From positions 1,054,001 through 1,118,000 of the forward strand of contig NZ_JACHBR010000001.1 of the NCBI RefSeq assembly GCF_014200435.1: 64,000 nucleotides of DNA, given 5' to 3'. This DNA comes from Sphaerisporangium krabiense. GTDB lineage: Bacteria; Actinomycetota; Actinomycetes; Streptosporangiales; Streptosporangiaceae. Shown here in pieces: positions 30,407 through 35,829 of this stretch (position 1 is the first letter of the stretch; the number at the start of each line of letters is the position of its first letter). Both the position numbers and the translations under genes were made by a program. Below the pieces are notes generated by a model that was not told the DNA's origin, ran no database searches, and saw only the letters and a list, made by a program, of their open reading frames with translations.

Positions 30407-30488
30407 GATCACGGACGACCGCGAGCGCCGGCGCGCGGCCGCGACGATCTCGGACGTACGGCCCGCGGTTTTGTCGTCGCCGAATGGC

Positions 30489-33400
30489 ATGCTGGAAGGC
30501 GTGACGGTGCACATGGTCAGCCCCCTGTTCGTCGGGCGCGAGCGCGAGCTCGAAACGCTCGGACGCGCGCTCACGCGTGCGCGGGAGGGCGCGGCGACCA
30601 CGGTGTTCGTCGGCGGCGAGGCCGGGGTGGGCAAGACCCGGCTGATCCGCGAGTTCTCCCAGCGTGCCGGCGACGCCCGCGTGCTGGTCGGCGGCTGCCT
30701 CGAACTCGGCACCGACGGCCTGCCGTTCGCGCCGTTCACCGCCGTGCTGCGCCGGCTAGTCCGCGACCTCGGCCACGACGGCGTCGCGGCCCTGGTGCCC
30801 GGCGGCAGAACGCGCGCGCTCGCCCGCCTGCTGCCCGAGTTCGGCGAGCCCGACGACGACGGCGGTGAGGCGCGGGCCCGGCTGTTCGAGCAGGTCCTCG
30901 GCCTCATGGAGCGCCTCGCCGAGATCGGGCCCACCATCCTGATCATCGAGGACGCCCACTGGGCCGACCGTTCCACGCGCGACCTTCTGTCGTTCCTCGT
31001 CCGCTACCAGCGCCCCACCACCCGCCTGGTCATCCTCGTCACCTACCGCTCCGACGAGCTGCACCGCACCCATCCGCTGCGCCCGCTGCTGGCCGAGCTG
31101 AGCCGCATCGACTGGGTCATGCGGCTGGACGTCCGCCGCCTCAGCAGGCGCGAGGTCATCCTGCAGGCCGCGAGCATCCTCGACAGAGAGCCCACCATGC
31201 TCGACGTCGACCTCATCTACGCCCGCAGCGAGGGCAACCCCCTGTTCGTCGAGGCGCTGCTGGACGGCGGCGAGGCGGCCGCCATGCCCGACTCCCTGCG
31301 CGACCTTCTGCTCGTCGGCGTCGAGCGCCTCCCCGAGGACACCCAGGAGCTGCTGCGCGTCGCCAGCGCCGGCGGCGACAGGATCGAGCACGCCCTGCTG
31401 TCCGCCGTGGCCGGCCTCGACGACGCCGCGCTGTCCCAGGCCCTGCGCCCGGCCGTCTCCGGAAACGTGCTCGTCGTCGACGGCGAGGGGTACGCCTTCC
31501 GGCACGCCCTGATCCGCGAGGCCGTCCACGACGATCTGCTGCCCGGCGAGCGCGTGCGCCTGCACACCCGCTTCGCCGAGACCCTGGAGCGCGACCCCGG
31601 CATCCTGCCCGACCCGCGCGGCGCCATCGAGCTGGCCCACCACTGGTACGCCGCGCTCGACTCCCCCTCCGCGCTCCTCAGCGCCTGGCGCGCCGCCGCC
31701 GTGGCCCGCAAGTCCACCGCCTACGACGAGCAGCTGCGCATGCTGACCCGCGTGCTCGAACTGTGGGACCGGGTGCCCGACGCCGCCGAGAAGATCGGCG
31801 CCGACCACGTCGACGTCCTGCGCCAGACCATCACCGTCGCCCACCTGGCCGGCGAGTTCGAGCGCGGCATCTCCCTCGCCAAGGCCGCGCTCTCCGAGAT
31901 CGACACCGAGACCGATCCCGTGCGCGCGGCCCGCCTGCTGCGCCAGCGCGGCCTGGTCCGCTACGACCTCGGCCGCGAGGGCTACCTGGACGATCTGCGC
32001 ACCGCCGTCCGGCTCGTGCCCGCCTCTCCGCCGTCCCGGCTGCGCGCCCAGGTCCTGGAGAACCTCGCCCGTGTCATCCACGACCCCAACGCCTGGGCCG
32101 AGAAGGAGGCCCTCGCCGAGGAGGCCATGGCGATGGCCCGCGAGGTCGGCGACCCGGAGACCGAGGCGCACGCCCTCACCTCGCTCACCTGGGCGCGGTG
32201 CCGCTACTCCGCCATGCAGGACCAGGCCGGCGCGTTCGGCCAGGCCCGCGAGATCGCCACCCGCGGCAACCGCTACAGCGCGCTCATGCGCGTCGCGATC
32301 TCCGAGTCCGACGCCTACGAAGGCGCCGGATGGCACGAGAAGGCGGCGCAGGTCGCCCGCCGGGGCATCGCGGACGCCGAGGCGTTCGGCCTCGCCCGCA
32401 CCTCCGGCGCGTTCCTGGCGATCAACCTGTCCGAGCCGCTGATGTCGCTCGGCCGCTGGGACGAGGCGCTGGAGGTCATCGACCGCGCGCTGGACGTCGT
32501 GCCGCCCGCCCCCTACCGCGCCAGCCTGCAGGGCTACGCCACCGACATCGCCCTCGCCCGCGGTCAGATCGACCGCGCCGAGTCGCTCTTCCACTCCTCG
32601 ACGCACGTCCTGAACCGCGGGTACTACCGCGACCAGTCAGTGCTGCCGCACCTGCGCCGCGAGATCGAGATACGCCTCGCCCAGGGCCGCGCCGACGACG
32701 CGCACGCCCTGGTGCAGCGGGCCGTGCGCGAGTACGAGTCGGAGGCCGCTCCCCGCTACGTCTGGCCGGTCCTCATCACGGCCACCGAAGCGGCCGGCCC
32801 GCTCCTCCCCGAACTCCGGGTGATCGCCGCGAAACTCCCGGTAGAGGGCGACCTCCAGGAGGCCCAACGCCTGACCTTCGCCGCCCGCTACCTCCAAGCC
32901 TCCACCACCCCACCCTCCTTCGCCCGCCCCCTCCACACCCCCAACACCCCCTCCTCCGCCACCCCCCACCTCCACCCCCTCAACGCCTCCGCCTCCGCCT
33001 CCGCCTCCGCCTCCGCCCGAGCCTCCAACGACCTCACCTCCGCCCGAGGCTCTGACGACCCCGCCTCCGCCCGCGCTTCTAATGCCCCCGCCTTCTCCCG
33101 CGCTTCTAACGGCCTGTCCTCCGCCGCCACCTGCACCGGCGACGGCTCGCCCGCTGCCGATGGCCTTCCCTCCCCGGATGAGCTTCTGTCGGCCACCTGG
33201 CTGGAAGGCCGGGTTCCCCCGGCCGCCGTGTCGGCGTTGTGGGACAAGGTCGTGGCCGCGTGGGCGGCGCTGCGCCAGCCTTACGCCGAGGCCCGGGCGC
33301 TGTTCGGCGCCGCTCAGGCCGCCGTCACCGCCGGAGACCGCGACCGGGCCGCCGAGCGGCTGTCCCGGGCGGCCCGCCTGGCCGAAGAGCTCCGCGCGGC

Positions 33401-33710
33401 CCCGCTCTCGGCCGAGATCGACTCCCTCGCCCGCCGGGCCCGCCTTCCCCTCGCCGGCGAGCCCGCCTCGGCCCACTCCTCCAGCCCACCCGCCGAGACC
33501 GGCCTCGGCCTCACGGCCCGCGAACGCGAGGTGCTCCGCCTGGTCGCCACCGGCCGCAGCAACCGCGAGATCGCAGCCGCCCTGTTCATCTCCGCCAAAA
33601 CCGTCAGCGTCCACGTCAGCAACATCCTCGCCAAACTAGGCGCGACCTCCCGCGGCGAAGCCGCCGCCACAGCCCACCGCCTCCACCTGTTCGACGACCA
33701 CCCATCCTGA
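30489..33710 (+). CDS. LAL-type LuxR transcriptional regulator with AAA ATPase domain
   Basis: About 1073 residues. The N-terminal ATPase has Walker [12 protein letters not shown] and Walker B-like [17 protein letters not shown]-like middle region follows. The C-terminal GerE/LuxR HTH is [22 protein letters not shown] with [19 protein letters not shown]. Such proteins are large activators of carbon use or secondary metabolism. Residues about 805-900 are a Ser/Ala/Pro-rich linker encoded by a polypyrimidine tract with (GCCTCC)n repeats and decayed 10-residue repeats. The start is uncertain: ATG 30489, GTG 30507 or ATG 30513; GGAAGG suits GTG 30507. Confidence 0.88.
32880..33120 (+). repeat. 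Polypyrimidine low-complexity tract with GCCTCC microsatellite inside the LAL gene
   Basis: The plus strand is almost all C and T with few G for about 150 bases. It includes a hexanucleotide (GCCTCC) repeat near 32985-33020. Imperfect repeats follow, encoding ARASND, ARGSDD, ARASNA and SRASNG. Confidence 0.75.
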
Positions 33711-33800
33711 CCCGAGGCGTGCGCGGTTGGTGGGCTGCTGGTCGGTGGACAGCTGGTCGGTGGACTGTGCTGTCGGCGCCTTGGTGTGTCGAGCCGCTCG

Positions 33801-34625
33801 ACACCACACGGCCAGCCCGTCGAGCCACGCGGCGACGCGCGCGTTCATGGGTGGGAGCGCGGTGCTCGGCCACAACGGTGCGGCACGGGTGGGGTCAACA
33901 CACCTAAGCCACCACAACCACCTCGCCATCCCACCGTTCCACACCACACGGCCAACCCGTTGAGCCACGCGGCAACGCGCGCGTTCATGGGCGGGAGCGC
34001 GGCGCTCGGCCACAACGGACCAGCACGGGCGGGGTCAACACACCTAAGCCGGGACAACCACCTCGCCATCCAACCGCTCAACACCACACGGCCAACCCGT
34101 TGAGCCACGCGTGGACGCGCGCGTTCATGGGCGGGAGCGCGGCGCTCAACCACAACGGTGCGGCACGGGTGGGGTCAACACACCTAAGCCGGGACAACCA
34201 CCTCGCCATCCAACCGCTCAACACCACACGCCCAACCCGTCGAGCCACGCGGCAACGCGCGCGTTCACGGGTGGGAGCGCGGCGCTCAACCACAACGGAC
34301 CAGCACGGGCGGGATTAACACACCCAAGCCGGGACAACCACCTCGCCATCCAACCGCTCGACACCACACCACTGACCAGTCGAGCCGCTCTGGAGATGCG
34401 CGCGTCGTGGGGGGATCACGGTGCTCGGCCACAACGGTCCGGCAGGGGTGGGGTCAACACACCTAAGCCCCACAACCACCTCGTCATCCAACCGTTCCAC
34501 ACCACACGGCCAACCCGTCGAGCCACGCGTGGACGCGCGCGTTCATGGGTGGGAGCGCGGTGCTCGGTCATGGTGGCGCGGCGCGGGTGGGATCGGCATA
34601 CCTAAGCCGGGACGACCGCCTCGTC
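33801..34625. repeat. Tandem array of six ~140-bp units
   Basis: Units begin acaccacacg at 33801, 33941, 34081, 34221, 34361 and 34499, so the spacing is 140, 140, 140, 140 and 138. Each carries CACCTAAGCC or a near copy (33901, 34041, 34181, 34321, 34460 and 34599). By eye, neighbouring early units agree at about nine of ten positions; units 5 and 6 have diverged. Units 1 and 3 share one variant block (ggtgcggcacgggtg) and units 2 and 4 another (ggaccagcacgggcg), suggesting 280-bp duplications. The period is not a multiple of three. A partial unit may precede it (33780-33800). No gene is evident within. Confidence 0.9.
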
Positions 34626-35142
34626 GGCGAATTGTTTGGGGGCCGCCTCGTCACAGAGGTGGGTCGAGCGTTTGTGGTTGTTCGGCGAGTCGTTGGGGCG
34701 GCCGCGGATTCATGGTCGGGGGCGGGTTGGTCGGGCGTGACCGGGTGAACCGATCTGTATATAAGGCGGGTTTGCGGGTTGGCTTTTTCATGGGTGATGG
34801 TCATGGGCGACCTCGTGCGGCGGCATGGCTTGGATGAAGGTTTTTTCCGTGTTGTTTCGTGGTTAGGGAGCCGGGCTTCGAGGCGGGGAGCGAGGGGACG
34901 TTACGTGTTGTCGTCCTGGGGTGGCGACCGAGGGGTTGGGGGTGGCTTGACCAGGTGTAACGGCTTCGGGGTGATGCCCAGCGACCCGAAATGGAAGGTG
35001 GAATGCCTTTATATTAATGGACATCCCGTTATTGCTGGTTGCGGAGCCCGAGTCCGGAATACCGAGCAGCCGGGAAAACATCGCCTGACCATCTGGTGAA
35101 AGCGTCTATTTCGCGGTGTGGGGGCTCGGTTAATCTCCTCGC
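34626..35142. other. G/T-rich region without a recognised gene
   Basis: About 500 bp between the repeat array and a methyltransferase gene. The plus strand is unusually rich in G and T, with T runs (ctttttc, ggttttttcc), and less GC-rich than its surroundings. A 106-codon frame (34779-35099) has no family resemblance and poor codon bias, so I do not call it. A TATATAAG element is at about 34757. The end (35040-35142) probably holds the promoter of the methyltransferase. Confidence 0.5.
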
Positions 35143-35829
35143 ATGAGCGCTCAGGTGAACAGCGGAACGGGGCCGGGGGCCATCACGCCCGATGGGTCGC
35201 CCGTGGAGTTCTACCGGCGGATGCGGGCCAGGGGCGAGCCCGATGTGGTGGCGGCCGTCGTGCCCGCCGGAGGGGTGATCCTGGACCTCGGCGCGGGCAC
35301 CGGCCGTCTGGCGCATGCCTTGCTGGAGGCCGGCTACAAGGTCGTCGCGGTGGACGAGTCGGCCGAGATGCTGGCGCACATCGAGGGCGCCGAGACGATC
35401 ACGGCCCGTATCCAGGGCCTCCGGCTCGACCGGCTCTTCGACGCCGTCCTGCTGCCGTCCTATCTCATCAACGTGCCCGACGACGTGCTGCGCCGCGAGT
35501 TCCTGGCCACGTGCCGCCGTCACGTCCGGGAGGACGGCGCGGTGCTGGTCCGGTGGGAGCCGCCCGAGCAGTACGCCCGGTGGCGGGTCGGCAAGGGCCG
35601 CGCCTGGGAGGACGGCGCGGTCATGATGACCGCCTTGGACCGGCCGGGTCCGGAGCTGTTCAGGGCCACACTGCGGTACCAGACGGGCGATCTGGTGTGG
35701 ACACAGACGTTCACGCAGCGCCGCCTCACGGACGAGGAACTGGAGTCCCACCTCGCCGAGGCCGGGCTGACCCTGTCCGGCTTCCTGACCGCCGACCGCG
35801 GGTGGATACACGCCGTCCCCCATCCCTGA
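35143..35829 (+). CDS. Class I SAM-dependent methyltransferase
   Basis: 228 residues. Motif I is VILDLGAGTGRLAHALLEAG, then VVAVDESAEMLAHI binds the SAM ribose, and LFDAVLLPSYLINVP is the post-II region. Small-molecule methyltransferases of this UbiE/BioC-like type cannot be assigned a substrate from sequence. No ribosome site precedes ATG 35143; ggttaatct about 10 bases upstream could be a -10 element for a leaderless transcript. The large secreted protein gene follows in the same direction. Confidence 0.85.
   Translation: MSAQVNSGTGPGAITPDGSPVEFYRRMRARGEPDVVAAVVPAGGVILDLGAGTGRLAHALLEAGYKVVAVDESAEMLAHIEGAETITARIQGLRLDRLFDAVLLPSYLINVPDDVLRREFLATCRRHVREDGAVLVRWEPPEQYARWRVGKGRAWEDGAVMMTALDRPGPELFRATLRYQTGDLVWTQTFTQRRLTDEELESHLAEAGLTLSGFLTADRGWIHAVPHP

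Follow-up and report, generated by a model that had tools for sequence, protein, structure and literature searches.

A six-copy tandem array in Sphaerisporangium krabiense and a dispersed intergenic repeat with a 38-bp three-box geometry

The gap behind a LAL-type regulator gene in Sphaerisporangium krabiense is largely filled by a tandem array of 140-bp units, and the question raised by this locus is whether the repetition concerns the adjacent gene, a structured nucleic acid or a DNA element found elsewhere. The window, which is the whole stretch of 64,000 nucleotides that was analysed, corresponds to G000:C1:1054001-1118000 of the source genome G000 (8.53 Mb, 4 contigs). The array is considered here to be a local amplification of one member of a dispersed intergenic family, the boxes of which would be a double-stranded DNA site for a putative protein; this reading is given a probability of about one half. 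For small interspersed bacterial repeats, a common explanation is that of palindromes mobilised by Y1 transposases. The present family has another architecture, a geometry found across several actinobacterial genera and boxes that look constrained, so that whether it is selfish or functional can be tested directly.

The array in the window

30471..33710, + strand: LAL-type regulator with AAA_16 and GerE domains (Pfam); no functional link found
33794..34623, + strand: six-copy tandem array, 140-bp period (repeat finder, TRF score 1133)
33845..33911, + strand: element copy 1, 67 bp; both GGGTGGG boxes and the central CCAC intact (boxes 33849-33893)
33985..34051, + strand: element copy 2; boxes GGGCGGG and GGGCGGG, CCAC intact (boxes 33989-34033)
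34125..34191, + strand: element copy 3; boxes GGGCGGG and GGGTGGG, CCAC intact (boxes 34129-34173)
34265..34331, + strand: element copy 4; boxes GGGTGGG and GGGCGGG, CCAC intact (boxes 34269-34313)
34404..34470, + strand, extent approximate (profile match 34410-34468): element copy 5; first box degenerate
34543..34609, + strand: element copy 6; both boxes intact, centre altered with no CCAC (boxes 34547-34591)
35143..35829, + strand: SAM methyltransferase-type protein (Pfam)

The six-copy array of about 140-bp units that had been predicted from this DNA is confirmed by Tandem Repeats Finder at 33794-34623, with a period of 140, 5.9 copies and 84% matches; its score is the highest of 17 rows for the window. 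The array starts 84 bp past the LAL stop codon (which ends at 33710) and occupies 830 of the 1432 intergenic bases before the next gene, which begins at 35143. The units in register start at 33789 and then follow in steps of 140, 140, 140, 140 and 138, as had been stated; matches to a single unit start at 33794 (partial, from unit position 6), 33929, 34069, 34209, 34349 and 34487. The core reported for every unit, CACCTAAGCC, is exact in four of the six copies, while copies 4 and 6 carry the variants CACCCAAGCC and TACCTAAGCC, respectively. Conservation of the whole unit, another feature of the original prediction, is seen within the array; across other loci only about 67 bp are kept, this being the part of each 140-bp unit that belongs to the wider family, and the remainder is a local linker. 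Neither sigma-70-like promoters nor intrinsic-terminator-like sites were found at 33650-35150 of the window.

Pairwise identity among the six units is 70-91%, which argues against an assembly artefact, one of two circumstances named beforehand as fatal to the observation. A protein-coding repeat was rejected because the unit is 140 bp long and an additional G in some of the copies changes the reading frame, in agreement with the view of the array as non-coding. A CRISPR array, with near-identical repeats and unique spacers, was likewise rejected as it had been at the outset, since the linkers repeat along with the core and the units diverge to the extent given above.

A dispersed family with fixed box geometry

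The unit core recurs elsewhere in G000 and in the sister species G008. The element is about 67 bp long with the core GGGTGGG-N14-CCAC-N13-GGGTGGG, and consists in order of TNNT, GGGTGGG, a 31-base spacer with CCAC, GGGTGGG and NTCAACACACCTCARCCA; three GTGG boxes per element lie in +, - and + orientation at a pitch of 19 bp, giving a 38-bp module plus the next box. Single elements (arms) were collected from fetched loci, 116 in total (G000 63, G008 51, G006 2), and 115 of these lie outside called genes, the calls being made by a simple GC3 rule for genes of at least 130 residues and not by a gene finder. The spacer is exactly 31 bases in 97 of the 101 arms with two perfect GGGNGGG blocks; the other 15 of the 116 arms do not have two perfect blocks. 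Conservation was assessed in 37 representatives, chosen as one per 3-kb bin among the tail-bearing arms that have two perfect blocks; it extends from position -4 to position +18 relative to the boxes and weakens outside these limits, and a T located 4 bp upstream of the first box is kept in 36. Neighbouring arms form 32 tandem, 15 convergent and 18 divergent pairs, linkers between elements differ from locus to locus, and a second array with a period of 184 bp is found at G000:C1:4.598 Mb.

A sequence-only model built from 31 arms gives 69 matches in G000 at E<=0.1; at E<=0.01 across 11 same-genus genomes it gives 67 in G000, 55 in G008, 4 in G006, 3 in G003 and 1 each in G007 and G010, with none in the remaining 5. 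Under stricter filters the model matched 15 of 341 genomes of the bacterial family at E<=0.001, and beyond G000, G008 and G006 these are single partial matches of E 7e-5 or worse in 12 genomes. The sequence model therefore does not link the genera convincingly, and the case for common descent among them depends on the geometry together with a few columns.

The three-box pattern GGGTGGG-N13/14-CCAC-N13-GGGTGGG has 189 matches in 30 of the 341 genomes of the bacterial family, and the reversed control has 0 in 341. Seven of the 189 were set aside as seemingly unrelated, namely one sequence, perhaps coding, in five g4 genomes and two single ones, so that 182 matches remain, from 23 genomes in 5 genera. 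As the pattern was designed after G000, G008, G007, G003 and G006 had been seen, the independent part is that from g4, g74, g75 and g85, with 63 matches in 18 genomes. G007 holds 37 matches, and G004 and G005 hold 0. A two-block search in the genus turned up further G007 repeats with this geometry, and a second search turned up one in G003; two GGGTGGG blocks 18-48 bp apart are unspecific (165 matches in G009, 89 in G002 and 85 in G000), and this two-block pattern reads identically backwards, so its control is uninformative. A spacer of 29-31 bases plus the C gave 23 matches in six other same-genus genomes versus 18 in the control; the three-box pattern alone stands out from its control. That pattern itself dictates the boxes; columns beyond it that are common to 67 multi-genus sequences (effective number 20.5) include 16 (G, 0.91), 37 (A, 0.85) and 34 (G, 0.83), and these shared columns suggest, but do not establish, common descent across genera.

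The geometry also occurs in extended and reduced forms. G239 has the module itself in tandem with a 38-bp period (L263, 5.6 copies), the blocks following one another between 1494 and 1684; L050 of G008 (twice) and L182 and L183 of G007 show three blocks spaced 37-40 bp. A fourth CCAC lies 14-16 bases past the second block in 12/48 cases in G000, 15/38 in G008, 15/26 in G007, 2/5 in g74/g75 and 0/14 in g4. The G010 family (L184-L186) lacks the central CCAC and has its two GGGTGGG boxes at a distance of 30 bp. By eye, g4 elements (L195, L199, L203, L205) often abut another short repeat, similar to GAGCGNAGCGNAG, after which CCTTT mostly follows.

In collections that may omit near relatives, the exact tail pattern had 0 matches among named genomes and viral contigs, and the first array copy had 0 matches among plasmids and phages; a looser box pattern matched one viral contig. 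The box pattern was in none of 80 named loci obtained from a search for relatives of the methyltransferase.

Neighbouring genes and the LAL regulator

If the array were a set of operators for the LAL regulator next to it, its position beside the LAL gene in both G000 and G008 would be accounted for. However, family members adjoin unrelated genes, encoding ABC transporter proteins, PhoD phosphatase, cytochrome b, lysyl-tRNA synthetase, TetR, MerR and methyltransferases, and the LAL genes of G005 and G006 are present with no element downstream; the operator array was rejected on these two grounds and is considered very improbable, and the link to the regulator that had been proposed at first is not upheld. 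No common theme was found among genes adjoining elements in the 20 flanking proteins scanned from the 65 flank rows listed, which included a single LuxR-type regulator. The methyltransferase gene on the other side of the array is missing at the corresponding place in G006 (L163) and G005 (L164); its best named relatives are Nonomuraea proteins with 52-59% identity, in a search that may omit near relatives, which points to Streptosporangiaceae as the bacterial family. The LAL coding sequence itself contains short-period repeats of 39-, 27- and 6-bp units at 32875-33125 of the window.

Copy number at shared loci

The window locus of G008 has the same neighbours as that of G000, with 18 kb aligned at mostly 92-95% identity; G000 carries six copies versus two in G008, where one of the two is degenerate, with its first box lost. 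Of 12 G000/G008 locus pairs, 11 have unequal numbers of arms in the fetched stretch. Tandem neighbours are 0.83 identical at variable columns versus 0.50 for random partners, and recombination or slippage between adjacent units may make and homogenise the arrays.

Substitution at the boxes

Copies shared by G000 and G008 were compared over 12 aligned stretches, at loci picked for known matches in both genomes and with gaps omitted. At the 12 box G columns 4 of 214 positions are changed, with 116/902 in other core columns, 438/3155 at non-core positions and 253/2130 at non-core G or C. Intergenic runs of three or more G or C outside the element are changed at 297/1944 positions, and GGGNGGG-type strings in intergenic DNA outside the element at 28/198; this last value means that run context alone cannot explain the constraint on the boxes. 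A broader locus-level count, which scores gaps as changes, reuses some G008 copies and takes in paralogous pairs, gave 23/525 changed versus 332/2144, and 11 of the 23 arise where a single decayed G008 copy of the window locus is compared. Overall identity between G000 and G008 is 89.3% in the core and 86.0% outside it; the core is barely above the non-core, which indicates that the boxes rather than the whole element are held.

Three further pairs were all found by a pattern that demands the G's. The colinear pair L250/L254, from another genus, shows 0/12 box G's changed, both linker T's turned to C and 5/31 spacer differences; the colinear pair L262/L268, also from another genus, shows 2/12 box G's changed; L256/L259 shows 0/12, with matches that are not colinear, and may be paralogous. 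In the G000/G008 comparison the box G's look constrained at shared copies; the boxes appear protected by selection, and the element therefore probably does something.

G-quadruplex and RNA structure

A structure-forming nucleic acid, either a G-quadruplex (GGG-T-GGG, a long loop, GGG-T-GGG) or a structured RNA, is regarded as improbable. The quadruplex draws on four nearly invariant G-triplets with one-base T or C linkers, and on the second linker T of shared copies, which is changed in 4/19 cases versus 3/112 for the six G's around it; the first linker T, however, is changed in 0/17, and a quadruplex needs neither the exact 31-base loop nor the central CCAC. The RNA reading likewise agrees with the G-runs and leaves the exact spacing and the central CCAC unaccounted for. 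In favour of an RNA, the column pair 26/33 in the multi-genus set occurs in both C-G and G-C forms, but RNAalifold found two-sided changes in only 1 of 12 pairs in each of two alignments, and those pairs are also often broken; no runs of covarying pairs were found among the 67 multi-genus sequences. Rfam gave 0 matches up to E=1 for 33600-35150 of the window, consistent with the earlier remark that no known family matches the array, and in 8 loci of G007, G010 and G006 none reached the gathering score. As the alignments contain no supported covariation, RNA structure was rejected. Pairs of convergent arms fold strongly; a long hairpin of such arms was nevertheless rejected, and counts against a structured RNA, since arms match their own partners no better than random ones at variable columns (0.566 and 0.566 identity).

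Mobility

A selfish non-autonomous mobile repeat, similar to REP/BIME or a very short MITE, would have boxes recognised by a transposase, no host function and arrays as by-products. Dispersed intergenic copies, lineage-specific amplification and tandem, convergent and divergent neighbours (32, 15 and 18 pairs) are all consistent with such a repeat, as is the situation in g74/g75, where the element lies inside an IS982-type insertion sequence, between the 5' inverted repeat and the transposase, while other genomes have an element-free form. The transposase of L206 scores 172.9 bits against NF033520 (cut-off 130); the insertion sequence is 1108 bp long with perfect 17-bp inverted ends, and the element is located 59 bp from one end. 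L218 is the same place as L206 (G237); other element-bearing IS982 copies are L224 (G238) and L227 (G242), and L238 (G239) has the element with a transposase remnant. Three element-bearing copies have about 110 extra bases at the site of the element versus seven element-free relatives from four genomes. On the evidence of these insertions the element can be carried by a transposon.

A family-like element is present in 4 of 30 fetched IS982 loci and lacking in 26, a fifth match (L231) being a different sequence, and an IS982 transposase of the g74/g75 kind is absent at E<=1e-8 from the element carriers G000, G008, G007, G003 and G006; IS982 therefore does not explain the family, and was rejected as its general carrier. 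A MITE is defined by terminal inverted repeats, a target-site duplication and a matching autonomous element; what was observed with regard to such an arrangement is a gap of 67-85 bp in 10 of the 15 convergent arm pairs. REP/BIME units are short palindromes that can fold into a hairpin and bear a conserved tetranucleotide tag. No supported conserved pairing was found in the element, and no tetranucleotide tag was seen by eye in its consensus; the REP tags GTAG and CGTC are named in titles and abstracts. A Y1_Tnp domain is found in 7 of 11 same-genus genomes, among them G004 and G005 and, with one match each, G000 and G008. The transposase does not track the element, as it is absent from G007 (37 pattern matches) and present in G004 and G005 (0 matches), and a REP/RAYT system was rejected for this reason. 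The lower substitution of boxes in copies kept at the same locus is also not expected of inert insertions. A selfish mobile repeat is possible under this evidence, though doubtful.

A proposed protein-read site and relation to known repeats

The reading of the array as an amplified family member with a protein-contacted site is preferred since the exact spacing, the alternating boxes at 19 bp, the sharp ends and the constraint specific to the boxes agree with a double-stranded DNA site recognised by a protein; the boxes would be contacted as double-stranded DNA by a trans-acting protein. Several findings stand against it: boxes can be lost (in one G008 copy at the window locus, and at 2/12 G's in L262/L268), the element overall evolves almost as fast as its surroundings (89.3% versus 86.0%), 5 of 11 same-genus genomes are without a model match, the model finds no more than single partial matches beyond G000, G008 and G006, and the G010 variant lacks the central CCAC. 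A more specific form of this reading is only tentatively put forward, in which the element would be recognised by a host DNA-binding protein that organises the chromosome or marks boundaries in these actinobacteria, and the copies would behave like bacterial satellite DNA, their sequence turning over quickly while the protein holds the three-box 38-bp geometry.

The family belongs to a general kind that is already known and has an architecture of its own; the literature titles and openings of abstracts that were covered describe no such family. The second circumstance set out beforehand, a known repeat with scattered copies, is found in part, in that the copies are scattered; no described repeat was matched and the boxes look constrained. 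Mycobacterial MIRU/VNTR are, similarly to this family, short actinobacterial intergenic repeats that are dispersed and locally tandem with variable copy number, and the present element has the same features of a dispersed intergenic unit (115/116 arms) and variable tandem copy number (6 versus 2 copies); however, going by the description of MIRU alone, the family is set apart by a fixed triple-box geometry that recurs across genera while the remaining sequence changes. REP/BIME with RAYT (TnpA_REP) share the small size, extragenic location, lineage specificity and frequent tandem or inverted arrangement, whereas the element here is about 67 bp, has no supported hairpin and does not follow the presence of a Y1 transposase. 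The likeness to the IS982 family is confined to the g74/g75 element inside an IS982-type element, as 26 of 30 IS982 loci are without a family-like element and the element-rich G000, G008 and G007 are without such a transposase. Box-bearing satellites, such as the eukaryotic satellites with CENP-B boxes, resemble the family in that the repeats change while short protein-contact boxes keep their spacing; the family here is in contrast bacterial, intergenic and low in copy number, with a putative protein. If the geometry is held by a host protein, bacteria would have in this family an equivalent of box-bearing satellite DNA.

Arrangement on the chromosome

Gaps that hold arms lie between convergent genes in 14 of 43 cases versus 4 of 34 for the remaining gaps of 250 bp or more in these loci. 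A weak polarity, for which the loci of G000 and G008 are not independent and the terminus is assumed to be opposite dnaA, is seen in arms with the tail CAACACACC, which point toward dnaA at 12 loci versus 3 (3 ties) in G000 and 13 versus 3 (5 ties) in G008. Arms of classes A and B are paired convergently, with a gap of 67-85 bp in 10 of the 15 convergent pairs (L020, L025, L027, L029 and others), and these A/B pairs form inverted repeats of about 200-250 bp.
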